Notes under the pieces: generated by a model | What the model was told of the DNA's origin: nothing | The model's input: only the letters and a program-made list of their open reading frames with translations | Database searches by the model: none | DNA from: Candidatus Cloacimonadota bacterium | GTDB lineage: Bacteria; Cloacimonadota; Cloacimonadia; Cloacimonadales; PWNZ01 | Length of the DNA: 37,273 nt | Assembly: GCA_003564155.1 (NCBI GenBank) | Contig: PWOA01000007.1 | Span: 1 to 37,273, forward strand | Direction of reading: 5' to 3' | Shown here: positions 3,801 through 36,017 of the stretch, one piece after another | Layout of the letters: each line of letters starts with the position of its first letter | Numbering within the stretch: the first letter of the stretch is position 1 | Program-made: the position numbers and the translations under genes

Positions 3801-4182
3801 ATAAAAATCTCCTCTTATTTTAGTCAATATTACCAAATACTGCCATGAGAAAGAGTATGAAATAGAGAAGTAAAAAAAGTCAAGTAAAAGAACATGTAAA
3901 AAACAGAAGAATAAATTTAATCTCAGTATTCCCTAAGATTGAGTAACACTTATTTTAGATATAGCTAATATAAGGATATAGTAAACACATAGAATATTTC
4001 TTCTCAATATAAAATTTTAAGCTTTTGTTTACCATTGAAAAATTGATAATAAAACTTAGCAACTATCTTCAGTTATGAATATCGGGAGAAATTGGTTGAC
4101 AACCTTCTGTAGTGTAGGTAATTGTGATCTCAATTATATTCAGGGAGTTAACCCCCTAACAGAAAAAGCTTGGAGGTTTGTT
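3801..4182. other. Divergent intergenic region, flavodoxin gene / S8 protease
   Basis: About 380 bases separate the two divergent start codons once the protease start is moved to 4183. It must contain promoters for both directions. Apart from the weak minus-strand candidate at 3854-3883 I see no strong promoter, hairpin or repeat. An in-frame ATG at 4075 lacks a Shine-Dalgarno sequence and would prepend 36 residues unlike a signal peptide. Confidence 0.4.
3854..3883 (-). promoter_or_regulatory. Possible sigma-70-type promoter of the flavodoxin-domain gene
   Basis: On the minus strand TTGACT (3883-3878) is followed after 18 bases by CATACT (3859-3854), about 55 bases before the start codon. 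In such AT-rich DNA near-matches occur by chance, so this is only a candidate. Confidence 0.25.
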
Positions 4183-4185
4183 TTG
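4171..4185 (+). promoter_or_regulatory. Shine-Dalgarno and TTG start deciding the S8 protease N-terminus
   Basis: TGGAGG at 4171-4176 is followed after six bases by TTG at 4183-4185 in the protease frame. This is the only strong ribosome-binding site near the gene start, and starting here yields a classic signal peptide (K-rich N-region, then hydrophobic VLIMSLAVISFVSM). Confidence 0.7.
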
Positions 4186-7100
4186 AAACTAACAAATAAG
4201 TACGATCAGTTTAACAAATACATTAAAGTATTAATAATGTCACTTGCAGTTATATCTTTCGTAAGTATGGACGGCTTAGATCATTTAGACCAAAATGTGA
4301 GAACAGCAGAAAATTTTAATCTTGAGCAACAGAGAATGCTGTTAAATTCTTTAGACCCGGTTGATTTAAATAGTGTACCGGAGAGTGCTTATCATAAAGG
4401 GAGAATTGTTATAAAACTAAGTTCTCAAGCAGGCGAAGTTGTAAAAGATATTCTTCACAGAGCTGCTAATGATTACGTTATCACTAACCATTCTGAATTA
4501 GACTTATTGAATGTTAAATACTCAGTTAGAGAATACCGACCTATATTACATGGACACTATGATATTTCTGCCGATTTCATCAAAAACCGTCATAAGCATC
4601 AGGAATGGGGTTTTCACTTATGGTTCAAGCTACAGTTAGATAAAAACGCCAATATTATAGACGCTGTACGTGATTATCAATCTCTCGAAGCAGTTGATAT
4701 TGCCGAACCGGTTTACATAAAAAAAATGATAGAACCGTTAGATAAGATACCGATATTTAATCAAAATCCACCAACCAGATGGAGACCTAATGATACTCAT
4801 TATAATGTACAATGGGCCTTAAGAAACACCGGTCAATCGATTCAAGACTTTATAGGAGTTGCCGGATCCGATATAAAAGCAGAAGGAGCTTGGACTCTCG
4901 AAAAAGGTCATAGTGATATCATTGTCGCAATATTTGATGATGGCATGGATTATGAACATGAAGATCTCGAAGATAATGTTTGGCCTGGTATTGGCCCTCA
5001 AGGATCCAACACTCCAACAAACAACCATGGTACTCATGTGGCAGGCATTATAGCTGCAATATCTAACAATAATCAAGGTATAGCAGGTATTGCAGGTGGT
5101 TCAGGAACTGGTAATGGAGTTAAGTTAATGGCTTGTAACATATTTAATACGGAAGATACTTATACACAGAGAAAGGTTTTTGCAGCTGATAGTAATGCGG
5201 TAATATCACAAAACAGTTGGACATATACCCAAGCCAACGTATATAATACTAATGATTTAGAGGCTATTTCATATTTCAATGTTAATGCAGGAGGAGACGT
5301 ATTAGATGGAGGGATAACTATCTTTGCTGCCGGCAATAGTAATAGCAGTAATAATTGGTATCCAGGATATTATGGTGGTACAATAGCAGTAGCATCAACT
5401 TTTAACCAAGACAGAAAATCCGGATTCTCCAATTATGGCCGTTGGATCGACATTTCTGCACCTGGCTCTCTAATTGCCAGTACCATTTCCGATGACGGCT
5501 ATTCCTATCTGAGCGGAACATCTATGGCTTGTCCTCATGTTTCAGGTGTAGCTGCACTGGTGGTATCATATGCACACAGGAATGATATATCACTTACTAA
5601 TAGTCGATTAAGAGATATTTTACTCAATACAACAGATAACATTGACCACATAAATACTAACCACCAAGGCCAGTTAGGAACGGGAAGACTCAATGCACAT
5701 GCAGCTTTGATGGAGCTTGTAATCCCTAACCCTCAACATTTTAGTGCTGAAGCAGATAGTAAGACCGAAGTTGATCTTCATTGGCAACAAAACGAATATG
5801 AAGATGACGTAATGATAATTTGGTCTAGTGAACCTGAACTAGGTCATCCTGAACAAGGAACTTTCTACGATTTAAGTCATAATATACCAGGTGGTGGAGT
5901 TGTTTTATATAAGGGTGCAGATACAACGTTCGTTCATCAAGAACTGGAATCGGGAAGAACTTATTATTACAAAGCTATCTCTTATAATGAAGATTATGAC
6001 TACTCTTATGGCTTAGCATACCACGTTACTACTATCCCACCGGTATTTGAAGTACCGTTCTATGAAGATTTTGACGAAGATGATCGGCTGCCGGTAGCTT
6101 GGGATGTAATAGATAATATCGGTTTAGGTCAAGTTTGGAAAATTGGATCTATTAATGAAGGACTACAAGAAACAACCGGTAACTATGTCTATACCTATAG
6201 AGACGAACATGGTGATAATCGCATGCAAAATACCGATCTGATCTCCCCTAATATAAAATTATTAGGCAAAGATAATGTAACACTGAAATTTAATCACTAT
6301 TTTTTAAGTTCTTTTAACTCATACGCTTATTTGCTCTACAGGCTTGATGGAGGGAGTTGGTATCCTTTAGACCGCTGGATAACTACTACAAATAACCCTC
6401 AAACATATGAAACGATGATATCTGATCTCGAAGAGTATTCCAATATTAGTTTCAAGTGGACTTTTTTCAGCATAAACGCCAATTTTTGGTGTATTGATGA
6501 TATTGAGGTTTTTAAAACCATTTATCTGCCTCCAGTAAATATTGAAGTTTATGCAAAAAACAACGCGGCAATTATTGAATGGGAACCTCCCTCAGAGGAT
6601 AAACCAAAAGGATATAATGTATTTAGAAACTCAAAATTGGTTAATGATAAACCTTTAACAAACTTTTTTTATGAAGACAATAATATTGACTTCGGCAAAC
6701 AATATGATTATTACTTGACTTCAGTGTATGAAGAAAGCGAATCTTTACCGTCAGAAACAGTTAGTATAACCTTAAAATACCCAGATGAGACAGACAAAAA
6801 ATCCCCTCCTCGTAATTTGACGTATTTTGCAGAAGGTTCGAACGTTCATTTGACTTGGCACAGACCTCATAATTTCGCTCAAGATGATTTTACAAGTTAC
6901 CGAATTTACCGGAATGATCTTGCTGTTAATATTGAAACAATTTTAGACACAACATATATTGATACAGATTTATATCCGGATAACGACTATGATTTTTATA
7001 TAACAGCTGTTTTTGATGAGATTGAATCTAAGCCGTCAAATGTTGTAACTGTAGAATTGGTAAATATTGAAAATGTGGATCTTCCATCTGTCACGGGATT

Positions 7101-7365
7101 GAAACCTAATTACCCCAACCCGTTCAATCCGGAAACAACAATAAAGTTTACTCTTGCTAGTCCCGGTTTTGTTATTATTGATATTTATAACACCAGAGGA
7201 CAACTAATAACAACTCTAATTGATAAGCATTTAGAATCAGGAATACACACTATTAATTGGAACGGTAAAGACTTTAATAATAATCAGGTAGGTAGTGGTA
7301 TCTATTTTTATAGAATGAAAAAAGGGAGTTATACTTCAACCAATAAAATGATTATGCTGAAATAA
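4183..7365 (+). CDS. Secreted subtilisin-like serine protease (S8) with FN3 and C-terminal FlgD-like sorting domain
   Basis: A 1060-residue extracellular or surface protease counted from TTG 4183. A signal peptide is followed by a propeptide-like region (about 60-190), then the S8 catalytic domain with triad D252 (FDDG), H282 (HGTHVAG) and S447 (GTSMACPH), and the oxyanion Asn in AAGNS. Next come a fibronectin-III-like repeat (from about 517), a choice-of-anchor/MAM-like domain (about 620-773, ending CIDDIEVF), two more FN3 domains (about 783-960), and a C-terminal beta domain (about 975-1060) beginning YPNPFNPETTIKF and ending in a typical GIYFYRMK strand. Such FlgD-like tails are common in Cloacimonadota, Caldithrix and relatives and resemble type IX sorting domains. 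It may degrade protein polymers outside the cell. The next gene, for another exported protein, follows in the same direction. Confidence 0.92.
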   Translation: MKLTNKYDQFNKYIKVLIMSLAVISFVSMDGLDHLDQNVRTAENFNLEQQRMLLNSLDPVDLNSVPESAYHKGRIVIKLSSQAGEVVKDILHRAANDYVITNHSELDLLNVKYSVREYRPILHGHYDISADFIKNRHKHQEWGFHLWFKLQLDKNANIIDAVRDYQSLEAVDIAEPVYIKKMIEPLDKIPIFNQNPPTRWRPNDTHYNVQWALRNTGQSIQDFIGVAGSDIKAEGAWTLEKGHSDIIVAIFDDGMDYEHEDLEDNVWPGIGPQGSNTPTNNHGTHVAGIIAAISNNNQGIAGIAGGSGTGNGVKLMACNIFNTEDTYTQRKVFAADSNAVISQNSWTYTQANVYNTNDLEAISYFNVNAGGDVLDGGITIFAAGNSNSSNNWYPGYYGGTIAVASTFNQDRKSGFSNYGRWIDISAPGSLIASTISDDGYSYLSGTSMACPHVSGVAALVVSYAHRNDISLTNSRLRDILLNTTDNIDHINTNHQGQLGTGRLNAHAALMELVIPNPQHFSAEADSKTEVDLHWQQNEYEDDVMIIWSSEPELGHPEQGTFYDLSHNIPGGGVVLYKGADTTFVHQELESGRTYYYKAISYNEDYDYSYGLAYHVTTIPPVFEVPFYEDFDEDDRLPVAWDVIDNIGLGQVWKIGSINEGLQETTGNYVYTYRDEHGDNRMQNTDLISPNIKLLGKDNVTLKFNHYFLSSFNSYAYLLYRLDGGSWYPLDRWITTTNNPQTYETMISDLEEYSNISFKWTFFSINANFWCIDDIEVFKTIYLPPVNIEVYAKNNAAIIEWEPPSEDKPKGYNVFRNSKLVNDKPLTNFFYEDNNIDFGKQYDYYLTSVYEESESLPSETVSITLKYPDETDKKSPPRNLTYFAEGSNVHLTWHRPHNFAQDDFTSYRIYRNDLAVNIETILDTTYIDTDLYPDNDYDFYITAVFDEIESKPSNVVTVELVNIENVDLPSVTGLKPNYPNPFNPETTIKFTLASPGFVIIDIYNTRGQLITTLIDKHLESGIHTINWNGKDFNNNQVGSGIYFYRMKKGSYTSTNKMIMLK

Positions 7366-24504: not shown

Positions 24505-24940
24505 TATGCCATGCTTAATCTATAGGCTTAAAGCCCAGAACAGGCAATGGCAGTGAGAACTGTTAACCGAAAAGCAAGGGTGTCCATCGTGAGATGGAAT
24601 CTGAAAGATGTTTCAGGTAAACTATGGAACTGACAACAGGAATCGGATATAAGACGTAATATGGAGATAAAGACAGGTAAATATTATCAGCCTCAGATAA
24701 ACCTTTCTGGAGAAGGGGGTATTGATACCTTACCAGTAAACGGGGCAGACGTATTCTGTCCACGTATCGGTAAGGTTTGTCTGTCAGTGGTTTTCAGCGT
24801 GTGATAAAGAAGGACGAGCCTTGACGCAAGTCTTTATGACAGTGATAGCTTCTGTTTCCAATCTTGTTGTTTCATTGAAGCAGGTAGTTAGAAATGGATT
24901 AATCAACTACCGTTAAAATTTTAAAGAAACCGCCCTGTAC
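24505..24940 (+). mobile_element. Probable group II intron relic (structured RNA, no reverse transcriptase)
   Basis: The segment has no frame but many paired elements: TGCCAT/ATGGCA (24507-24512, 24547-24552); CCATC/GATGG around a GTGA tetraloop (24584-24597); CTGAAA/TTTCAG (24601-24616); ACCTTACC/GGTAAGGT (24727-24734, 24769-24776); and GGTAGTT/AACTACC (24883-24889, 24905-24911). GNRA loops appear only when read on the plus strand. The run from GTGAGAACTG to the GCTTCTG-TTTCC block, then the AACTACC stem and AAACCGCCCTGTAC (24927-24940), resembles from memory domains I-IV and the beginning of domain V of bacterial group II introns. The complementary half of domain V, a clear GUGYG 5' end and the RT gene are missing. 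It would then be a dead, 3'-truncated copy. Another structured non-coding RNA is the alternative. Confidence 0.45.
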
Positions 24941-25020: not shown

Positions 25021-27444
25021 TCACAACAATGATAATGGATCTATATCAATGTCTACCTTAATAGAGTTTTTCCACTTATTGAGTCGGGTTATGCGATTCA
25101 CGACATTTAACAGAGTATTAATTTTAGCAACTTTAATTATTATGTGATATCGATATTTATTGTTTATCTTATGAATAGGGGTTGGGATCGGACCTAATAA
25201 CAGCAGATCTTGGCTGCTACCAGTTTTATTTGATTGATCACCGTGACTTTTTTTTAACTCTTTAATCAAGGGAACAATCTTATTAATTTCATTTTTCAAG
25301 TATTGTTCGTCTTTATGCGAATATACAATTCTTGCTAAACGAGAGAATGGAGGGTAAAAGGAATTTTTTCTAAGCGGCATTTCATATTTACAAAATTTAG
25401 TGAAATTTTGTTCTTGTGCGCTTTTTACTGCATAATGTTCAGGATTATATGTTTGGATGATCACTTCACCGGGTAAGTCACCTCTTCCGGAGCGTCCGGC
25501 GACTTGAGTCAACAGTTGAAATGTCCTTTCGGATGCTCGAAAATCAGGTACATTAAGGCTGTTATCTGCAGCAACAACCCCTACTAGAGTGACTTTAGCA
25601 AAATCTAAACCTTTAGCAATCATTTGAGTGCCAAAAAGAATATCAACAACTCCACTATTCATTCTTTCAAACATCGACAGATAACTATCCTTCTTAACAA
25701 CCGTATCAGTATCCATACGAAGAATTTTTGCAGAGGGGTATTGTATTAACAATTCTTTTTCAAGCTGTTGAGTACCGGGTGTTCCGTAAGATAATAAATA
25801 ACTACCGCAAATCGTACATTTTTGTTCCATTTCTTTAATATATCCACAGTAATGACACATCAATACATCTGATTTGCTGTGAAAAATAAGACTAACATCA
25901 CATTTAGGGCACTTGGAAACTTTCCCGCAATTCATACAAAGAAGATAACTAGCATAACCTCGACGGTTAAGTAACAAGAGAGTCTGTTCTTTTTGTTGTA
26001 GTCTTTCTTTAATCTTCTCCTTAAGGATTTTCGATATTATTCTGTTGGATTCGTTTTCGTTTTTCATGTCTACTATTATCACTTCAGGCCGTTTAATATT
26101 TAAAGGCCTGTTATCGAGTTTTAGAAGTTGATATTTACCTGATTCTACATTTTGCAAGGATTCTAAGGAAGGGGTGGCACTTCCTAATAAAACTATGGAG
26201 TTATTTATTTTCCCTCTTAAAACAGCTATGTCTCTAGCATTATAACGGGGAGCTTTATCCTGTTTATAACTTGTTTCATGTTCTTCATCAACTATAATGA
26301 TACCAATTTTATCTAAGGGTGCAAAAATAGCGCTCCGGGCACCAATTACAATTTTACGTTCACCCCTTCTAATTCGTTTCCACTCTTCCCAACGTTGTCG
26401 TTCATTTTTACGGCTGTGAAGTATAGCAATTATATCACCGAAAGCGTTATAAAACCACTGCTCCATTTGGGGGGTTAGAGCTATTTCAGGCACTAACACC
26501 AAGGCATTTTTGTTGATCGAAAGACATTCACGTATTAGTCTAATATATATTTCTGTCTTACCGCTACCGGTAATCCCATGAAGAAGGAATGGTTTATATT
26601 CTCCTGTTAATAAGCTGTTTTTGATAGTTGAAAAAACTTCTTGTTGTTCATCGGTTAATGATATTTTTTTATTATTGCATTGAACCTGGTTGTTGCTAAT
26701 CTTTTCTTTGACTACTCTTGCTTCTACATTGATTAGACCTTTATTTTTTAAAGCTTTTACAATTGAATAACTAATTGTTTCAGCAATCAATGATAAGGGG
26801 ATGTCTTGTTGAAAACCTTTAATCAATTTATATGCTTCATCCTGTTTCGACGTTAGTTTAGGGATATCTTGTACCGATTTTTCTGCTGAGATATAATTAG
26901 CGTATTTAGGTCTGATTTTGGGATCACAAAGACGTTTGACTTCAATAAGGTTCAGCTCTTCCAAATGTTCAAAATATTTGTAAATCGGTAAGTTAGGATA
27001 CTTTTTTTTAAAATCTTTCAAGTTAGTCCACTTTTCATAACTCAAATAATTTAATATCTCAATTTCAATATCATTTAATGAATCGTTAAGTTCATCAGCA
27101 CACTCTTTTCTCTTTACTTCCAACGCTATTTGAGGTTGTATGGCAGTCGGCAGCATCGCCAATAAAACAATTCCCCGGCTACAAAAGTAATAGTTACTCA
27201 TCCAATCGGCTATCGTCCGTAAATCCTCAGCAAGTAAAGACCGGTCATCTATTATCTCAATGATATTTTTGTATCTAATATCCGGGTTAATATTTGGTGA
27301 TGATAATCTTGACCATACGAAACCGGAAATAAGTTTATTGTTAAAATCTACCAAAACACGGCTACCTGGCATAATATTCCGGTCACATTTATAAGTAAAA
27401 AGCTTATCTATTCTAACTGGAATAGCTATTTCGTAATAATTCAT
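25021..27444 (-). CDS. priA: Primosomal protein N' (replication restart helicase PriA)
   Basis: An 807-residue DNA helicase that recognises stalled forks and reloads the replicative helicase. The N-terminal 3'-end-binding domain (YYEIAIPVRIDKLFTY) is followed by a winged-helix region, then the superfamily-2 motor: Walker A GITGSGKT (290-297), DEEH in IIVDEEHETSYKQ, GSATPSLESL and QMIAKGLDF, QVAGRSGRG. A zinc-binding insertion carries paired cysteines (CMNCGKVSKCPKC, MCHYCGY, KCTICGS). Length and order fit the family, with no truncation. An AGAGGT just before the ATG on the minus strand supports the start. The gene stands alone, divergent from the outer-membrane protein gene; the structured segment lies beyond its 3' end. 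Confidence 0.96.
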   Translation of the reverse strand: MNYYEIAIPVRIDKLFTYKCDRNIMPGSRVLVDFNNKLISGFVWSRLSSPNINPDIRYKNIIEIIDDRSLLAEDLRTIADWMSNYYFCSRGIVLLAMLPTAIQPQIALEVKRKECADELNDSLNDIEIEILNYLSYEKWTNLKDFKKKYPNLPIYKYFEHLEELNLIEVKRLCDPKIRPKYANYISAEKSVQDIPKLTSKQDEAYKLIKGFQQDIPLSLIAETISYSIVKALKNKGLINVEARVVKEKISNNQVQCNNKKISLTDEQQEVFSTIKNSLLTGEYKPFLLHGITGSGKTEIYIRLIRECLSINKNALVLVPEIALTPQMEQWFYNAFGDIIAILHSRKNERQRWEEWKRIRRGERKIVIGARSAIFAPLDKIGIIIVDEEHETSYKQDKAPRYNARDIAVLRGKINNSIVLLGSATPSLESLQNVESGKYQLLKLDNRPLNIKRPEVIIVDMKNENESNRIISKILKEKIKERLQQKEQTLLLLNRRGYASYLLCMNCGKVSKCPKCDVSLIFHSKSDVLMCHYCGYIKEMEQKCTICGSYLLSYGTPGTQQLEKELLIQYPSAKILRMDTDTVVKKDSYLSMFERMNSGVVDILFGTQMIAKGLDFAKVTLVGVVAADNSLNVPDFRASERTFQLLTQVAGRSGRGDLPGEVIIQTYNPEHYAVKSAQEQNFTKFCKYEMPLRKNSFYPPFSRLARIVYSHKDEQYLKNEINKIVPLIKELKKSHGDQSNKTGSSQDLLLLGPIPTPIHKINNKYRYHIIIKVAKINTLLNVVNRITRLNKWKNSIKVDIDIDPLSLL

Positions 27445-27829: not shown

Positions 27830-29062
27830 ATGAGATATAAACTAATAATTATAGCTTTCATTATAAACTTATTGATTATAACAGACTTAAGAGCTAATTC
27901 CATTTTCTCTTTCAAGGGCTTCCCTATCCAGGATTACAATACAGATGTTTTGAGTTTGAGTATGGGTGGAGCCGGTATTGGAGATACATTTAGAAGAAAT
28001 ACGAGTTTTATCAATCCTTCCTTAAGTACGACATTAAACCAAGTATATTTCTCAACGGGTATTAGCACAGGTTATTATTATTACCATGATAGTAGTTATA
28101 AATTCAGAGATGATGGCATTTATTTCCCTTATTTTAATATAACAATACCGCTATCAAACCATAGAATCGGATTTAACTATAGCTCGTATCTCTCCGGCAA
28201 TATTGATACTTACCTAAAAGACAAAAAATGGGAAGAAGCAGACTTATCTTTTTCAGAAATAAATCGAGTTAGATCTTACATATACAAAGGGTCATTGTTT
28301 TGGAGTTATAAACATGAACTTGTAAATTTGGGTCTCTCTTTTGATTATTTATTAGGCCATCAATTCCATTCATGGAAACAAGAATATGTCGGAGCAGGTT
28401 TTTTCATCGACCCTTGGTATGAAGTGAACCGTAATTATAGTAATTATGGATACAGTGTTGGTCTTAACAGGAGTTTTGGTGAAGTTTCTTTGGGAGCTTT
28501 ATACTCCAGTCCTACCAATCTTGAAGGTGATCAAGAGGTTGTTACCAGGCATAAGGTTTTTGATATAGAACAAGCAAAATTTGAGACACCACATCATCTC
28601 GGTTTAGGTTTAGCATGGCGTCTTAATTATAATTACCGTATCGCCTCCGACTTCCATTATGAATTATGGTCACAGACAAAATCTTATGAAGACTCTGACA
28701 ATACTTATAAATTTTCACTAGGGCTTGCATACGAACCTCATTGGAGTTACGAAAAATGGCACCGAAGAATTCCTCTAAGAATTGGTGGATATTATAGGAC
28801 ATTACCTTTCAAAGTGAATGACAAAAATCTCGATGAAATTGCTGCTTCGTTCGGATTTACCGTCCCTTTACAAACTCCTAATAGTCAACTTGATTTTGCT
28901 ATCCAATACGTTGTTCGTGGTGATGTAGACCTTCATGACTATTCTGATGAAAGCCTGATTCTGAGTATAGGGTTTTCCGGATTTGATTTCTTCTCTAGTA
29001 GAAAGAAAAAAATCGATGACAGAGATATTCCAGAAGCCGAATTTGAAAGTTTTAGAGATTAA
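27830..29062 (+). CDS. Outer-membrane beta-barrel protein (PorV/FadL-like fold)
   Basis: A 410-residue exported protein. A signal peptide (KLIIIAFIINLLIITDLRA) precedes DVLSLSMGGAGIGDTF and TSFINPS, the N-terminal signature of the PorV/UPF0164/FadL-like barrels in which a small-residue stretch is followed by an Asn-Pro. The rest alternates polar and aromatic residues in short amphipathic strands (YFSTGISTGYYYY, LGLAWRLNYNYRIASDFHYELW, YKFSLGLAYEP), as expected of a barrel of about 14 strands. The extreme C-terminus is acidic (DDRDIPEAEFESF) and follows the last strand. In Bacteroidota-like lineages such proteins include the type IX component PorV; a general porin or transport role is equally possible. 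recJ starts eight bases after its stop. Confidence 0.75.
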   Translation: MRYKLIIIAFIINLLIITDLRANSIFSFKGFPIQDYNTDVLSLSMGGAGIGDTFRRNTSFINPSLSTTLNQVYFSTGISTGYYYYHDSSYKFRDDGIYFPYFNITIPLSNHRIGFNYSSYLSGNIDTYLKDKKWEEADLSFSEINRVRSYIYKGSLFWSYKHELVNLGLSFDYLLGHQFHSWKQEYVGAGFFIDPWYEVNRNYSNYGYSVGLNRSFGEVSLGALYSSPTNLEGDQEVVTRHKVFDIEQAKFETPHHLGLGLAWRLNYNYRIASDFHYELWSQTKSYEDSDNTYKFSLGLAYEPHWSYEKWHRRIPLRIGGYYRTLPFKVNDKNLDEIAASFGFTVPLQTPNSQLDFAIQYVVRGDVDLHDYSDESLILSIGFSGFDFFSSRKKKIDDRDIPEAEFESFRD

Positions 29063-29070
29063 TAGTCATT

Positions 29071-30648
29071 ATGTTCTACTGGCAAGTAGCTCCCCGTAAA
29101 GGAGAATCAATATCTGAACACCTCGACAAATCGCGAGAGTACCTTGATGATAATAATTACGGTAATGGCAATCATGAATCCTTCTTCGGCTATAAAATAC
29201 CAAATAAAAAACTGATTAAAGATGTTCTTAAAGCTGCAACTAGAATTGTAAAAGCTGTAAAAAACAATGAGAAAATTGTTATTTTCGGGCATGATGATGT
29301 TGATGGTATAACTTCAACCTACATACTTTTTGACTTTCTAGACAAAATAGGTTCCTATTCTCACTATTACTATATACCAAATCGCCTTACAGATAGTCAT
29401 GGTATTAGTGAGTCTTTTATCAACTGTGTTAATGAAAATAATTTTTCGCTAGTTATAACTGTTGACATCGGGGTCACATCGATTGAAGGTGTTAATAAAC
29501 TCAATGATATGGGATGTGAAGTAATCATTACCGATCATCATTTGATAAGTTCTTCAAACTTACCTAATGCTTACGCTATTGTCAATCCCAAAAGAGATGA
29601 TTGTCAATATCCTGATAAAACGTTAACCGGTGTGGGCATAGTATATTTCTTAGTAAGCATTATATCCGAGTTATTGGGTATCACTGTTCCTGATAAATAT
29701 ATTTTTTGGACAGCAACCGGTACGATCGCTGACAAAGGATCAATGGTAGGTATAAATAGAATAATCTGTAAAGTCGTATTTGATAATTGGCAAAAAATGA
29801 TTGATCGGCCTCTATCTCTTTGGTCCAATTGTATTTCTAAAAAATGTACTACCTATTTTGATAAGAATCATTACATCTATAATATGGCTAAGCTTTTAAG
29901 CTGTGGTAGAGATATTAATGGAGAGAACAAAGCACTCTATTTTCTACTTGCTCCGGACTATAAACAACGTGAGGTAGTAACAGAATTGTTCAAACGTAGA
30001 AGTGAATACGAATCTAGTCTAACCAACGTGCGAAAATTATTAGAAAGTATATCCCCTGAGAACAAAGATCTGTTTTATATTTATATTGACGAAAAGGATG
30101 AGATACCTCTTATTCATTCAGGCTGGGCAGTTAATTACATGTGTTATCTTTTCAAAATTCCGGTTATTTATATTAAGATTAAAGGTTCTCTGGTTTTAGG
30201 TGAATGTAAATGTATAAAACCGTTTAATTTCGTTGATGCTTTAGATTATTGTAAAGAAACATTATGTCAATTTGGAGGTCATAATTGTGCAGCCGGTTTT
30301 ATTTCTTCTGTTGATATGTTGTCTTCATTTAGGAATTTATTCGCTCAATATGCAGAGACTCAAAAAGATGTTATTCTCAACGGGAAGAAGATTCCGATTG
30401 ATCTGGAGGTCAACAAAGAAGATATTCCTTCACTAAAGAATCTCATAATGAATTATAGCCCTTTCGGTGAAGACGCACCAATACCTACATTCTTAGTGAA
30501 AAATATTAAAATACACCAAACTATGCCAGACGCCGTAAATTTCAGTCTAAAAGAGTACCTGCCCGGAGAAAATTATGATGTTGTTTTCACTTATCGGTGT
30601 AACGGTAAAATGGCAATTATTGATACTAAAAAATCAAGTATAAGTTAA
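29071..30648 (+). CDS. recJ: RecJ-type single-stranded-DNA exonuclease (DHH/DHHA1)
   Basis: A 525-residue DHH-superfamily nuclease. Motif I is GHDDVDG (H74-G79 region), motif II VDIGVTS, motif III the signature DHH (D155-H156-H157), followed by AIVNPKRDDCQYP and LTGVGIVYFL typical of RecJ. The DHHA1 domain shows GGHNCAAGF, and a C-terminal OB-like region closes the protein. RecJ degrades single-stranded DNA 5' to 3' in recombination and mismatch repair. It is about 50 residues shorter than E. coli RecJ (577), within family range. The start is close behind the beta-barrel gene and lacks a clear Shine-Dalgarno, so translation may depend on read-through from that gene. Confidence 0.88.
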   Translation: MFYWQVAPRKGESISEHLDKSREYLDDNNYGNGNHESFFGYKIPNKKLIKDVLKAATRIVKAVKNNEKIVIFGHDDVDGITSTYILFDFLDKIGSYSHYYYIPNRLTDSHGISESFINCVNENNFSLVITVDIGVTSIEGVNKLNDMGCEVIITDHHLISSSNLPNAYAIVNPKRDDCQYPDKTLTGVGIVYFLVSIISELLGITVPDKYIFWTATGTIADKGSMVGINRIICKVVFDNWQKMIDRPLSLWSNCISKKCTTYFDKNHYIYNMAKLLSCGRDINGENKALYFLLAPDYKQREVVTELFKRRSEYESSLTNVRKLLESISPENKDLFYIYIDEKDEIPLIHSGWAVNYMCYLFKIPVIYIKIKGSLVLGECKCIKPFNFVDALDYCKETLCQFGGHNCAAGFISSVDMLSSFRNLFAQYAETQKDVILNGKKIPIDLEVNKEDIPSLKNLIMNYSPFGEDAPIPTFLVKNIKIHQTMPDAVNFSLKEYLPGENYDVVFTYRCNGKMAIIDTKKSSIS

Positions 30649-30729
30649 GTTTCTTAAGGAGATATACTCAAAACTATTTTGAGCGATACGATAAACAATG
30701 ATAAATTACTAATTAAGGCGGTAAAACAT

Positions 30730-32142
30730 ATGAAAGTAATTTGGAATAAATGTGATATTTGTGGGGTTTGTGCTTCTGTATGCCCCGTAGATGCAGTAAC
30801 TATTTCAGAACATAAAGTCGAAATTAATAACATGAAATGTATTGATTGTAATAAGTGTCTCATAGTATGTCCCGCTATGGCAATCGTTAGAGGATTTGAA
30901 AATAATTCTCCAAAAGAAGATGAAACGACTATTGACCTAACTCTTTTGCCTAATATCGAAAAAGAATATGACGTTATCGTCGTCGGCGCTGGACCGGGAG
31001 GTAGCGTAACTGCCAGGTTTTCAGCCGAAAATAACCTTTCGACTTTAATTTTAGAAAGAGACAGAGAAGCCGGAATACCGGTCAGATGTGCAGAGGGTAT
31101 TTCCGGAGGAGGGTTAGATGCTTTTATTAACATCGATGAGAGATTTATTTCATCAAGGATAAGAAAAGCCAGGCTATATACCCCAGACGGCAATCATTTA
31201 GATATGCGATCTAAAGTCGAAGGTTATGTATTAGAAAGGCGAGTCTTCGATTCTGCTCTTTGTGATATAGCTTGCCAAAAAGGAGCAGAGATGCTTACAA
31301 AGGCCGATGTCACAGGAATTAAAAAAACATCTGATGGTAAGATGAAAGTTTTTTTTACCTACAAAGGTCTACAGAGGTACGTGACCTGCAAAATAGTCAT
31401 AGGAGCCGATGGAGTCGAATCCCGAGTAGGTAGATGGGCAGGTATAGACACTACTCTTAAACTTAATGATATATCATCAAGTACTCAATATAGAATTAAT
31501 AATATTCAGTTAGATAGTGAAATGATATCATTTTATTTTGGCAATAAAATTGCTCCTGGAGGTTACGTTTGGGTATTCCACAAATCAAGTAATTCTGCTA
31601 ATGTCGGTATCGGTATTACCGGTAATTTTGCCCAAAACAAACCTGCTCAAGATTATCTGGATGAATTCATTAAAATACATTTTCCCGAAGCATCCATAAG
31701 TTATACTGTATATAGTGGAGTTCCCATTGCAAACACATTAGATAAAATTGTTGCGGACAATGTTATGCTTGTCGGAGATGCTGCCAGACAAGTAAACCCT
31801 GTAACCGGTGGTGGAATAAAGCAGGCAATGGTAGCTGGGAAAATCGCAGGTGAAGTTGCAGCGGAAGCTATTCTTAAGAATGACTATAGCACTAAAATTC
31901 TCAAGAAATATTCTCAGGAATGGGAACGCGTTTTGGGCTCAAAACATAGATTCATGTATAAGATTAAAGAAAAAGTTCTAAATGCTCCGGATGAAAGGTT
32001 AAATAAGATATCTAATATATGTAAAGGGCTGCCGGCTGAAGATATCTCTCTAACATATTTGTTTAAAGCCGTTGTCAAAGGTGATCCGAAACTGGTAGCT
32101 GAGATGGCAACAGCATTTGTTTTGAGTAAGATAAGTATCTAA
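30730..32142 (+). CDS. Ferredoxin-fused geranylgeranyl-reductase-family flavoprotein
   Basis: A 470-residue fusion. Residues 8-48 hold two 4Fe-4S ferredoxin motifs (C8, C11, C14, C18 and C37, C40, C43, C47, each ending CP). An FAD-binding Rossmann fold follows with GAGPGG at 86-91, the RCAEGISG motif of the geranylgeranyl reductase family, IGADGVESRVGRW and the second FAD motif VMLVGDAARQVNPVTGGGI. The family reduces isoprenoid double bonds, as in archaeal lipids, chlorophyll phytyl tails or dolichols; the built-in ferredoxin suggests low-potential electrons. I choose ATG 30730 (AAGGCGG eight bases upstream) over TTG 30679, whose nearest AAGGAG is too far away. The polyprenol-kinase-like gene follows 50 bases on, making a lipid-alcohol or quinone side chain the likely substrate. 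Confidence 0.88.
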   Translation: MKVIWNKCDICGVCASVCPVDAVTISEHKVEINNMKCIDCNKCLIVCPAMAIVRGFENNSPKEDETTIDLTLLPNIEKEYDVIVVGAGPGGSVTARFSAENNLSTLILERDREAGIPVRCAEGISGGGLDAFINIDERFISSRIRKARLYTPDGNHLDMRSKVEGYVLERRVFDSALCDIACQKGAEMLTKADVTGIKKTSDGKMKVFFTYKGLQRYVTCKIVIGADGVESRVGRWAGIDTTLKLNDISSSTQYRINNIQLDSEMISFYFGNKIAPGGYVWVFHKSSNSANVGIGITGNFAQNKPAQDYLDEFIKIHFPEASISYTVYSGVPIANTLDKIVADNVMLVGDAARQVNPVTGGGIKQAMVAGKIAGEVAAEAILKNDYSTKILKKYSQEWERVLGSKHRFMYKIKEKVLNAPDERLNKISNICKGLPAEDISLTYLFKAVVKGDPKLVAEMATAFVLSKISI

Positions 32143-32192
32143 ATATATTAACTGAATAAAGCAAGTTATGTCTTGATGGAATATCGGAAATT

Positions 32193-32834
32193 ATGCAACA
32201 TAAAGCTCCAAAAAAAATAACACCTATCCTGAGTAAACATGAGACAAAAGAGATTTATCGAAAGTCTGTCCACGTTGCATCTATAATACTGCCTCTTTCG
32301 TATCGTTATATTTTTAATTATGATAAATCACTAACTGTTACTGTATTGCTTCCATTAGCTTTAATTGCAGTTATTATTGAGTTGTTTCGATTAGAACACA
32401 AAACTGCCAAAAAAATATTTTATCGTATATTTGGTATTATGCTTCGTAAGCATGAGGTAGCAAACCTGACTGGCGCTTCATATCTATTGACTTCCAGTGT
32501 TTTTACTATAACTCTTTTCCCGCATGACATTGCTTTCATTTCTCTTAGTTTTTTAGCTTTAGGGGATACTTTTGCCGCCGTAGCCGGTATTCGTTTCGGC
32601 AAACGGAAATTAAAAAATAATTATAAGAGTTTTGAAGGTAGTCTTGCCTGTTTTGTTTCTTGTTTCATTTTTGCCCTGATATATTCTATCCATCCCACTA
32701 TGGCATTCGTTGGTGCTATAGCAGCTACATTTGCAGAACTATCTAAAATACCAATAGATGATAACATTAAATTGCCGATTTTTACCGCTATAATAATGTC
32801 ATTAGCTTCTATCATCATTCCTGTTAATTTTTAA
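32193..32834 (+). CDS. Polyprenol/dolichol-kinase-like membrane protein
   Basis: A 213-residue integral membrane protein with about six hydrophobic segments. It matches the SEC59/VTE5 (dolichol and phytol kinase) branch of the CTP-transferase superfamily: KSVHVASIILPL near the N-terminus, and the block ALGDTFAAVAGIRFGKRKLKNNYKSFEGSLACF, in which GD-x2-A, G-x2-x-GK and K-S/T-x-EG-S are the hallmark nucleotide-binding residues. Family members phosphorylate isoprenoid alcohols using CTP. Placed between a reductase that can saturate isoprenoids and a polyprenyl-phosphate glycosyltransferase, it is a good candidate for making a reduced polyprenyl phosphate. The start ATG has only a weak ribosome-binding site. 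Confidence 0.8.
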   Translation: MQHKAPKKITPILSKHETKEIYRKSVHVASIILPLSYRYIFNYDKSLTVTVLLPLALIAVIIELFRLEHKTAKKIFYRIFGIMLRKHEVANLTGASYLLTSSVFTITLFPHDIAFISLSFLALGDTFAAVAGIRFGKRKLKNNYKSFEGSLACFVSCFIFALIYSIHPTMAFVGAIAATFAELSKIPIDDNIKLPIFTAIIMSLASIIIPVNF

Positions 32835-32871
32835 AAGTTCAAATGATCTATTATGATTTGAGGAGGATTAA

Positions 32872-33804
32872 TTGAAAATATCGTTCATCGTACCTGTTTA
32901 TAATGAAGAACAAAGCTTGCAGCAACTCTATAGTGAAATAAAAAAAGAGTTAGATATTTACAACCATGAAATAATTTTTATCGATGATGGTAGCACCGAT
33001 AATAGTTTTGAGGTTTTATCTTATTTAGCGCATCAAGATAAAACTGTAAAAATTGTTAAATTAAGAACCAATTTTGGTAAATCTGCAGCATTACAAACAG
33101 GTTTTGAAAAAGTTACCGGGAACTATGTTTTTACTATTGACAGCGACTTGCAAGATTCACCAGAAGAAATTCCATTATTTATAAAAAAAATTGAAGAAGG
33201 TTATGATCTTGTTTCCGGATGGAAAAAGAAACGTAAAGATCCTTTTATCAGAAGAATATCTTCTTACCTGTATAATCTAACTACTTCTGTTCTTTTTGGT
33301 ATTCGTCTCCATGATTATAATTGCGGTTTTAAATTATATAGATCTCAAGTTATAACTGAATTCGATATTTATGGAGAACTTCACCGTTATATTCCGGTTT
33401 TAGCTGCTGCAAAAGGTTTTAAAATCACAGAAATTCCGGTTAAACATAGAGCCCGTAAACATGGTAAAACAAAATTTGGTAGAGAAAGATATCTAAGAGG
33501 ATTTTTTGATCTCTTGACCGTTAAATTAATTACTAACTATATTAGAAGTCCCTTATACTTATTTGGTGGTTTAGGAATGGTATTCTCGTCATCAGGTTTT
33601 ATTATTGGTTTATATCTTACCGTTCTAAAGTTTTTTTATGGTATACCACTCAGCGACCGTCCTTTATTATTTATGAGTATTTTATTGATTGTTGTAGGTT
33701 TACAATTTTTTTCTATTGGTTTAATAGGTGAATTACTGGTTAATCAAACCCGAAGACTTAACAGGTTAACGAGTATATCTATTGAAAAAGAGATAAATTT
33801 TTAG
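32872..33804 (+). CDS. DPM1/GtrB-type polyprenyl-phosphate glycosyltransferase
   Basis: A 310-residue GT2 enzyme. The GT-A domain has SFIVPVYNEEQSL, IFIDDGSTDNSF and the metal-binding DSDLQDSPEEI, with the acceptor-side motif DYNCGFKLYRS. Two C-terminal membrane helices (about 228-256 and 268-296) are those of the GtrB/ArnC/DPM1-like group, which move a sugar from a nucleotide donor to undecaprenyl or dolichyl phosphate at the inner face of the membrane. The start is a TTG at 32872 preceded by GAGGAGG, a strong ribosome-binding site. It sits 37 bases after the kinase-like gene and 61 before the flippase. The sugar cannot be deduced. Confidence 0.9.
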   Translation: MKISFIVPVYNEEQSLQQLYSEIKKELDIYNHEIIFIDDGSTDNSFEVLSYLAHQDKTVKIVKLRTNFGKSAALQTGFEKVTGNYVFTIDSDLQDSPEEIPLFIKKIEEGYDLVSGWKKKRKDPFIRRISSYLYNLTTSVLFGIRLHDYNCGFKLYRSQVITEFDIYGELHRYIPVLAAAKGFKITEIPVKHRARKHGKTKFGRERYLRGFFDLLTVKLITNYIRSPLYLFGGLGMVFSSSGFIIGLYLTVLKFFYGIPLSDRPLLFMSILLIVVGLQFFSIGLIGELLVNQTRRLNRLTSISIEKEINF

Positions 33805-33865
33805 ATTATCGCTTAAAGTAAGCAATAATAATTCATTTTATTTTTCTACTAACACTATTTCAGCA

Positions 33866-35338
33866 ATGGGAATCATTAAAAGACAAAGTATAACTGGTAC
33901 CGTCTATTTGTATTTAGGTGTTGTACTCGGTTTTATTACTACCGGTATCTTATTCCCAATAGTGTTTACCACTGAACAAGTAGGATTATTAAGATTGCTC
34001 TTGTCTGTTGCAATCTTAATTTCACAATTTGCTAGCCTTGGCTTTTATTCACCGACAATTAGGCTGTTCCCATATTTTCGAGATAAAGAAAAAGGTCATA
34101 ATGGATTCCTATGCTTATCGTTATTGATAAGTTTAGCCGGTTATATTTTCTTTATTGCTGCATTGGTAATATTAAAACCGTGGATAGTTGCAGCTTATCA
34201 AGATAAATCTGCATTATTTGTTGATTACTTTTATTATCTTATACCCTTGATATTTTTCACACTATTGTTTAATACCCTGGAAACATACTATAAAGTACTT
34301 TATAATGCAGTCAAAGGAACATTACTAAAGGATGTATGGCAGAGAATATTTATTCTTATCTGCGTGACTAGCTATTTCCTGGAACTGATTGACTTTGATA
34401 TGTTAGTCAGATTATATGTTATTTCTATCGGACTACCTCCCATATTATTGATTATAGCTCTCATAAAAGAAGGTCAGTTCAATTTAAAGTGGGGGAATAA
34501 ATTCATTACGAAAAGCCTAGCTAAAAATATTATCAATATGAGTATGTACGGAATAATAAGCGGCTTTTCCGGTATCTTAATTGTTAATATAGATCTGCTA
34601 ATGATTAATCATTTCCTAGGTCTGAGTTTTACAGGAATTTACGCTATCACTATGTATTTCGGTACGTTAGCAAATATCCCCGCTCGTTCCATCAGAAATA
34701 TTTCTACAATAGTCATTTCAGACGCTTGGAAATCGGAAAACATATCAACTATTAATGATATCTATAGGAGAAGTAGTTTAATCTTGACTGTTATAGGCTC
34801 ATTAATTATTTGTGGCCTTTGGGCAAATATTGACAATGTGTTTAAAATAATTGGCCCTGAGTATGAGGCAGGACGCTATGTGATTTTATTTATTGGTATT
34901 GCAAACCTGTTTGATATGGCAACTGGAGTTGGTAAAAACATAATTCATACCTCCCCTTATTATCGTTACTTAACATGGTTTATTGTCTTATTTTTTGTAA
35001 TTATTGTGGTTACTAATTTGATTCTAATACCTGCCTGGGGAATAATTGGTGCAGCGATTGCATCTGCAGTATCTAAATTAATTTACAACATCCTGATCTG
35101 GGCATTTCTTTGGACGAAGTTCAATTTTCAACCTTTTAACTATAAATATTTACTTATTGTAGCCATTACTGTCGGAACTTACTTGTTGTCAACTTCGTTA
35201 AACACTATATCTCCAATGTATTTAGACTTGACTATTCGTAGTTTAATGGTTACTGTTACATACTTAGCCATTATCTACTTTCTCCGGATATCACCGGATA
35301 TCAATAATACAATAAAAACGATAATATATAAGTCATAA
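33866..35338 (+). CDS. PST/MATE-superfamily polysaccharide flippase (Wzx-like)
   Basis: A 490-residue membrane protein with 12-14 hydrophobic segments and the polysaccharide-transporter pattern: an N-terminal TVYLYLGVVLGFITTGIL helix with FTTEQVGLLRLLLSV, the mid-protein MYGIISGFSGILIVNIDLLMINHFLG, and a C-terminal GIIGAAIASAVSKLIYN. Such proteins flip lipid-linked sugars or oligosaccharides across the inner membrane. Placed after a polyprenyl-phosphate glycosyltransferase it completes a lipid-linked glycan module. No strong Shine-Dalgarno precedes the ATG. No Wzy polymerase or O-antigen ligase gene is in view. Confidence 0.85.
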   Translation: MGIIKRQSITGTVYLYLGVVLGFITTGILFPIVFTTEQVGLLRLLLSVAILISQFASLGFYSPTIRLFPYFRDKEKGHNGFLCLSLLISLAGYIFFIAALVILKPWIVAAYQDKSALFVDYFYYLIPLIFFTLLFNTLETYYKVLYNAVKGTLLKDVWQRIFILICVTSYFLELIDFDMLVRLYVISIGLPPILLIIALIKEGQFNLKWGNKFITKSLAKNIINMSMYGIISGFSGILIVNIDLLMINHFLGLSFTGIYAITMYFGTLANIPARSIRNISTIVISDAWKSENISTINDIYRRSSLILTVIGSLIICGLWANIDNVFKIIGPEYEAGRYVILFIGIANLFDMATGVGKNIIHTSPYYRYLTWFIVLFFVIIVVTNLILIPAWGIIGAAIASAVSKLIYNILIWAFLWTKFNFQPFNYKYLLIVAITVGTYLLSTSLNTISPMYLDLTIRSLMVTVTYLAIIYFLRISPDINNTIKTIIYKS

Positions 35339-35363
35339 GCTTATTTTTCGAGGGTATATTTAA

Positions 35364-36017
35364 TTGAAAAGTATAAAAGACAAACAATCTTTAATAAACA
35401 AAACCCACTACTATGGTAAATACGTCAATCTACAAGGGTTTATTTCTTATTTCTATCAGATAGAATTGATTTTAGATCTTATGCCAGGAAGAATACTTGA
35501 AATTGGTTGTGGCAATAAATTAGTGAGCAATTATATTCGACAAAGTGGATTAAATATAACCACATGTGATTTCAATAAACATCTAGAACCCGATTATACT
35601 GCCGACATCAGAAACCTGCCATTTAGTGATAGTTCCTTTGATTTGATAACTGCTTATGAAGTTTTGGAACATATCCCTTGGGAAGATACGGAAAGAGCAA
35701 TGACAGAGCTAAAAAGAGTTACAAAAAAATATGTTATCATCTCTTTACCATATCCATCTTTTTTCAAACTTGAAATCGTGGTTAATAACACAACTATTTC
35801 AAAGGTTGTAAAACGAAAAATGACAAGCATTTTACTAAGAATACCACCATTCTTTAAGAAACATAAATTTAATGGATACCATTATTGGGAAGTCGGTAAA
35901 AAAGGGTATTCTGTTAAAACAGTTTGTAATATGCTAAGTAAACATTTCTATATTAAAATGAAACTGCGACCAACCCTGAATCCATACCATATTTTTTTTG
36001 TTCTTGAGAAAAGATAA
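35364..36017 (+). CDS. SAM-dependent class I methyltransferase
   Basis: A 217-residue methyltransferase. Motif I is ILEIGCGNKLVS, the acidic end of strand 2 is TTCDFN, motif II/III is DIRNLPFSDSSFDLITAYEVLEHIPWED, then VIISLPYP, the type-11 fold. The start is a TTG at 35364 with GAGGG about nine bases upstream. It is the last gene of the plus-strand glycan block (26 bases after the flippase) and may methylate a sugar, a lipid carrier or a quinone; sequence does not say which. A clear terminator was not found before the convergent SUMF1-fold gene. Confidence 0.88.
   Translation: MKSIKDKQSLINKTHYYGKYVNLQGFISYFYQIELILDLMPGRILEIGCGNKLVSNYIRQSGLNITTCDFNKHLEPDYTADIRNLPFSDSSFDLITAYEVLEHIPWEDTERAMTELKRVTKKYVIISLPYPSFFKLEIVVNNTTISKVVKRKMTSILLRIPPFFKKHKFNGYHYWEVGKKGYSVKTVCNMLSKHFYIKMKLRPTLNPYHIFFVLEKR

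Follow-up and report, generated by a model that had tools for sequence, protein, structure and literature searches.

Does a geranylgeranyl reductase (GGR), encoded beside a lipid-alcohol kinase and a polyprenyl-phosphate glycosyltransferase (GT) in a bacterium, act with these neighbours in a single pathway for a dolichol-like glycan carrier, as was originally predicted, or do separate functions share one address? The question arises from a stretch of 37,273 nucleotides (the window), contig C16 in a Candidatus Cloacimonadota bin (MAG) of 1.86 Mb and 82.6% completeness.

Layout of the locus

The original prediction described five genes in a fixed order with short gaps, and the open reading frames bear this out. 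The ferredoxin-GGR fusion, kinase, GT, flippase-like protein and methyltransferase follow one another on the + strand, separated by 50, 37, 61 and 25 bases (Table 1). The reductase frame has a further in-frame ATG at 30730, which had been taken as its start. The identities proposed for the GGR, the GT and the methyltransferase stand on family matches, but the flippase call is weak.

Table 1. Genes of the locus and its immediate surroundings in the window
Feature	Position	Strand	Evidence
Outer-membrane beta-barrel protein, FadL/TodX- or BamG-like	27830..29062	+	BamG NF053685 107.7 bits (cut-off 250); Toluene_X weak
RecJ-like DHH exonuclease	29071..30648	+	DHH PF01368 E=3e-23; TIGR00644 267 bits (cut-off 396.9); conserved position
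Geranylgeranyl reductase fused at its N-terminus to a two-cluster ferredoxin	30679..32142	+	PF22578, TIGR02032
Predicted SEC59/VTE5/DGK1-type CTP-dependent lipid kinase (polyprenol or diacylglycerol)	32193..32834	+	Orthologue motifs; PF01148 in orthologues
ArnC/GtrB/DPM1-type polyprenyl-phosphate glycosyltransferase	32872..33804	+	GT2 PF00535 E=1e-33
Probable PST/MATE-like polysaccharide flippase	33866..35338	+	PF01943 16.8 bits, under cut-off of 28.2
SAM-dependent methyltransferase, Methyltransf_11	35364..36017	+	PF08241 E=1.6e-14

The named relatives of the kinase locus are nearly all Candidatus Cloacimonadota, and their gene order is outer-membrane protein, RecJ-like protein, ferredoxin and GGR (where present), kinase and GT. 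The outer-membrane beta-barrel gene is the first of the conserved locus in the window, and its upstream position is kept in relatives. In 78 database loci the GT directly follows the kinase 64 times, and the gene preceding the kinase is GGR in 31 and RecJ in 28. This frequency, together with the recurrence of the RecJ-[ferredoxin-GGR]-kinase-GT order across relatives, argues that the arrangement is not due to chance. Local departures occur: thiamine genes stand between GGR and kinase in family f13, and in three genomes with GGR and no kinase (G052, G081, G086) the GGR adjoins the GT directly. The gene after the GT varies by family, being the flippase here, a UDP-sugar pyrophosphorylase in f10 and an FtsX-type ABC transporter in f2. 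Among the loci compared, a flippase at this place was seen only in the window and in two others (L070 and L090), all within one family of genomes, and the position of the methyltransferase is not conserved among relatives; these two genes are local additions outside the conserved unit.

One of those loci, L070, is a second RecJ-GGR-kinase-GT-flippase copy within the same bin (contig C81, 1-5733), with GGR and kinase 74-76% identical to those of the window. Its GC content of 39.2%, compared to 33.5% in the window, suggests that the contig probably stems from a relative and contaminates the bin. Promoter and terminator scans gave signal no better than shuffles. Elsewhere in the window, an Rfam match to a group-II-D1D4-3 intron (24583-24691, + strand, 38.5 bits) lies beside priA (25021-27444, - strand), and a subtilase with a Por secretion-system C-terminal sorting domain (4075-7365, + strand) points to type IX-like secretion.

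The reductase and the archaeal-type lipid genes

By its sequence, the window reductase is a true member of the geranylgeranyl reductase family. It passes the GGR_cat model (PF22578; 86.5 bits against a cut-off of 27, E=1e-24) and TIGR02032 (214.3 bits against 158.8), and it retains the CxxxG, RxxFD and GDAA motifs. Its best PDB relative is 3oz2, a digeranylgeranylglycerophospholipid reductase (E=1.7e-75, residues 96-476). The equivalog cut-off for that enzyme is missed (best NF041160, 276 bits against 780), the models in question having been made for archaeal taxa. The N-terminus matches 4Fe-4S ferredoxin domains; in most relatives the ferredoxin is a separate small open reading frame.

Archaeal-type ether lipids were predicted for this phylum in 2020. 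According to that study (Villanueva et al. 2020, PMC7852524), Candidatus Cloacimonetes encode GGGPS (GGGP synthase) and DGGGPS, which proved active when tested in E. coli; CarS is missing, and the Black Sea MAGs carry GGRs of the Euryarchaeota type. Three MAGs of the study (NIOZ-UU2, UU3 and UU4) all carry the same locus as the window, and the UU4 reductase is identical to that of genome G117. In the genome from which the window comes, a different contig (C46) carries genes for a prenyl-diphosphate synthase, DGGGPS and GGGPS one after another, and the GGGPS passes TIGR01769. DGGGPS, a UbiA-family gene, is adjacent to GGGPS in most genomes. CarS was not found in this genome, nor in 25 of the 26 genomes searched.

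Co-occurrence was compared across 125 genomes of the phylum, with GGR counted at E below 1e-36 and 27-29% identical matches in G048 and G049 left out. GGR is found in 65 genomes, GGGPS in 67 and the kinase in 109. GGGPS is present in 61 of the 65 genomes with GGR and absent from 54 of the 60 without it, an agreement in 115 of 125 (61 both, 54 neither, 10 discordant; Fisher p=1.6e-23, a value inflated because the genomes are related). A tree of 48 loci has just 4 GGR changes and 5 GGGPS changes; with so few changes in GGR, the co-loss of the two is not statistically independent, and an independent-pairs test of it draws on 3 pairs and has no power.

Because GGR tracks GGGPS, and because this genome has its own prenyl-diphosphate synthase, DGGGPS and GGGPS cluster, the GGR would most likely saturate archaeal-type ether lipids, making it the saturating step of the pathway already predicted for the phylum. 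In nearly all lineages its gene is placed with the kinase and GT, not with GGGPS and DGGGPS. In a bacterial phylum whose membranes may be mixed, these results supply a genomic address for the predicted saturating enzyme of the archaeal-type lipids, and they group GGR with the ether-lipid genes, apart from the kinase-GT pair.

The kinase-glycosyltransferase pair

In the original prediction, GGR and kinase were successive steps toward a dolichol-like lipid, so that the two might be expected to co-occur in relatives. They are indeed linked, since the kinase is present in 60 of the 65 genomes with GGR, usually next to it. However, they are not co-dependent: 49 genomes carry the kinase but no GGR (almost the whole of family f2, together with G054, G056 and G061), and the two genes are not associated across the 125 genomes (Fisher p=0.11). 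Family f2 has kept kinase and GT, has no GGGPS and is missing GGR almost throughout, and kinase and GT are contiguous both with and without GGR. What stays constant in the locus is the kinase-GT pair, which persists when GGR is lost. This persistence argues that the locus is probably not a dolichol pathway, and GGR itself follows GGGPS and DGGGPS; a dolichol pathway operating as one unit was rejected as the main reading on the basis of co-occurrence.

DGK1, VTE5 and SEC59 are kin, members of one kinase family. The window protein has no match in Pfam or NCBIfam, and its placement in this family, as first proposed, is backed by its orthologues. CTP_transf_1 (PF01148) is matched by 17 of 29 orthologues at E<=1 (best E=2e-6; the window protein is not among them), and the motif RKxxH...GDTxAxxxG...K[ST]xEG, whose RKxxH and CTP-binding region we take to define the family, is present in 29 of 29. 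The kinase profile matches CdsA across the motif region (E=1e-4), and the nearest solved fold to the AlphaFold2 model (pLDDT 94) is CdsA 4q2e, a modest likeness (prob 0.99, E 0.03, TM 0.38); the PDB fold search otherwise returned only unrelated helical proteins. A role as CdsA or CDP-archaeol synthase was considered and rejected, as the CdsA signature is found in 0 of 29 orthologues and genomes without GGGPS still have the kinase. The genome has its own CdsA on C109, which bears the PROSITE-type CdsA signature. More distant kinase homologues (35-41% identity; L183, L184 and L186) occur in WOR-3 and an uncultured bacterium, with no recognised GGR or GT alongside and a large protein following them instead.

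The GT resembles ArnC (E=2e-48), the GtrB protein sll0501 (2e-30) and the dolichol monophosphate mannose synthase 5mlz (2e-22) in the PDB. It falls below every equivalog cut-off; the motif D-x-D-L-Q-D is present in 36 of 36 relatives.

UppS was found in 26 of 26 sampled genomes and UppP in 24, and so the usual undecaprenyl-phosphate route is available. DgkA was found in 0 of the 26, which together with the presence of UppS and UppP points to a probable role for the kinase in recycling undecaprenol or diacylglycerol; a salvage role is plausible. The kinase would phosphorylate a lipid alcohol with CTP, most likely undecaprenol (or diacylglycerol). The GT, working at the inner membrane, would then attach a sugar to polyprenyl phosphate to serve the synthesis of envelope glycan. 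The best explanation of the locus is probably that it holds two functions, a GGR for archaeal-type lipids and a separate kinase-GT module for lipid-alcohol and glycan metabolism. Protein families, gene order and co-occurrence are read directly from the genomes, and from them we infer the substrates, the nucleotide donor and the direction of flow. With DgkA absent, the pair offers a candidate throughout the phylum for phosphorylating lipid alcohols, and the kinase is a candidate replacement for a DgkA-type enzyme.

A somewhat unlikely alternative has the kinase standing in for DgkA as a CTP-dependent counterpart of yeast DGK1, acting on diacylglycerol (or on an archaeol-type diradylglycerol); its adjacency to the GT would then be incidental. 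Its near universality in the phylum and the closeness of its fold to CdsA are in keeping with such a role, as are the lack of DgkA and the scarcity of DAGK_cat, which is over the cut-off in just 10 of 26 sampled genomes and not in this one. The persistent pairing with a polyprenyl-phosphate GT nevertheless fits polyprenol better.

Other substrates and known systems

A GGR could in principle serve both lipids, saturating the archaeal-type lipids as well as at least one isoprene unit in the polyprenyl phosphate that the GT uses, with the kinase re-phosphorylating the reduced polyprenol. The linkage of GGR to kinase and GT is deep across families, three genomes in which neither archaeal-lipid nor quinone prenyltransferases were detected still have GGR next to the GT, and deleting a single GGR in Haloferax has effects on diether lipids and dolichol phosphate alike (2024 review, PMC10821996). 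We nonetheless judge this unlikely, as almost the whole of f2 retains the kinase and GT with no GGR, normal UppS and UppP are present, and the GGRs of two GGGPS-less genomes of f2 and f4 are fast-evolving outliers.

Four of the 65 GGR genomes are without GGGPS. In G052 (99% complete), G086 (96%) and G010 (74%) GGR stands at the locus and no GGGPS or UbiA-family enzyme was detected; the same enzymes were not found in G105, which is 64% complete. The GGR branches of G052 and G010 are long, at 4.0 and 2.4 changes per column where the median is 0.38 (about 6-10x), whereas their concatenated kinase/GT/RecJ branches are ordinary (0.65 and 0.40); in the GGR tree the long-branch rows G048, G052 and G010 cannot be placed. 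Such fast evolution fits a constraint that changed or relaxed once the ether-lipid genes had gone, and it also fits a new substrate. G086 has an ordinary GGR, so that a missing contig is possible in that genome. Very fast-evolving GGRs with most motifs kept were noted at L193:7153-8352 and L195:1913-3088, in genomes without GGGPS. That some Cloacimonadota use one GGR for a dolichol-like glycan carrier as well as for membrane lipids, with G052 and G010 keeping the carrier role only, is doubtful; if a GGR did serve both, this would be a bacterial dolichol-like carrier. A literature search found no paper joining Cloacimonadota and dolichol.

The kinase family takes in phytol and farnesol kinases, which raises the idea of a geranylgeraniol or phytol salvage in which a VTE5-like kinase acts first and the prenyl phosphate is then re-used. 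This is very unlikely, since the kinase pairs with a glycosyltransferase rather than a prenyltransferase and the conserved neighbours showed no second kinase for prenyl phosphates. Menaquinone, originally raised as an alternative GGR substrate, is most improbable: MenJ is a GGR homologue and a truncated, weakly MenA-like UbiA-family protein lies at a contig end in this genome (L188:3685-4236, - strand), but the MenJ model gives 66 bits against a cut-off of 700, far under the lipid-reductase models, most near-complete GGR genomes (more than 15) have a single UbiA enzyme, nearly always beside GGGPS, and MqnA was found in 0 of 28 genomes.

The preferred reading, an ether-lipid GGR beside a separate kinase-GT module, can be set against several known systems. 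With the ether-lipid pathway of Candidatus Cloacimonetes and the FCB group (PMC7852524), the window's genome shares the phylum, the adjacency of GGGPS and DGGGPS, GGRs of euryarchaeal type and the absence of CarS alongside a bacterial CdsA. The main-text passages of that study compared here give no description of the GGR locus, of its ferredoxin or of the neighbouring kinase and GT. The Thermoplasma acidophilum reductase (3oz2) is alike over the residues aligned above, with its motifs kept, and the window enzyme differs from it in the fused N-terminal two-cluster ferredoxin. With the SEC59/VTE5/DGK1 kinases (COG0170) the window kinase has in common the motifs and a multi-helix membrane architecture, but it is short (about 200 aa), below Pfam detection and linked to a GT2 enzyme. 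The GT shares with ArnC, GtrB and DPM1 the GT2 domain, the DxD motif and C-terminal membrane segments. Finally, eukaryotic and archaeal dolichol phosphate synthesis draws its reductase, kinase and GT from these same families; in Cloacimonadota, in contrast, the kinase and GT persist without the reductase, and the UppS/UppP route is present.
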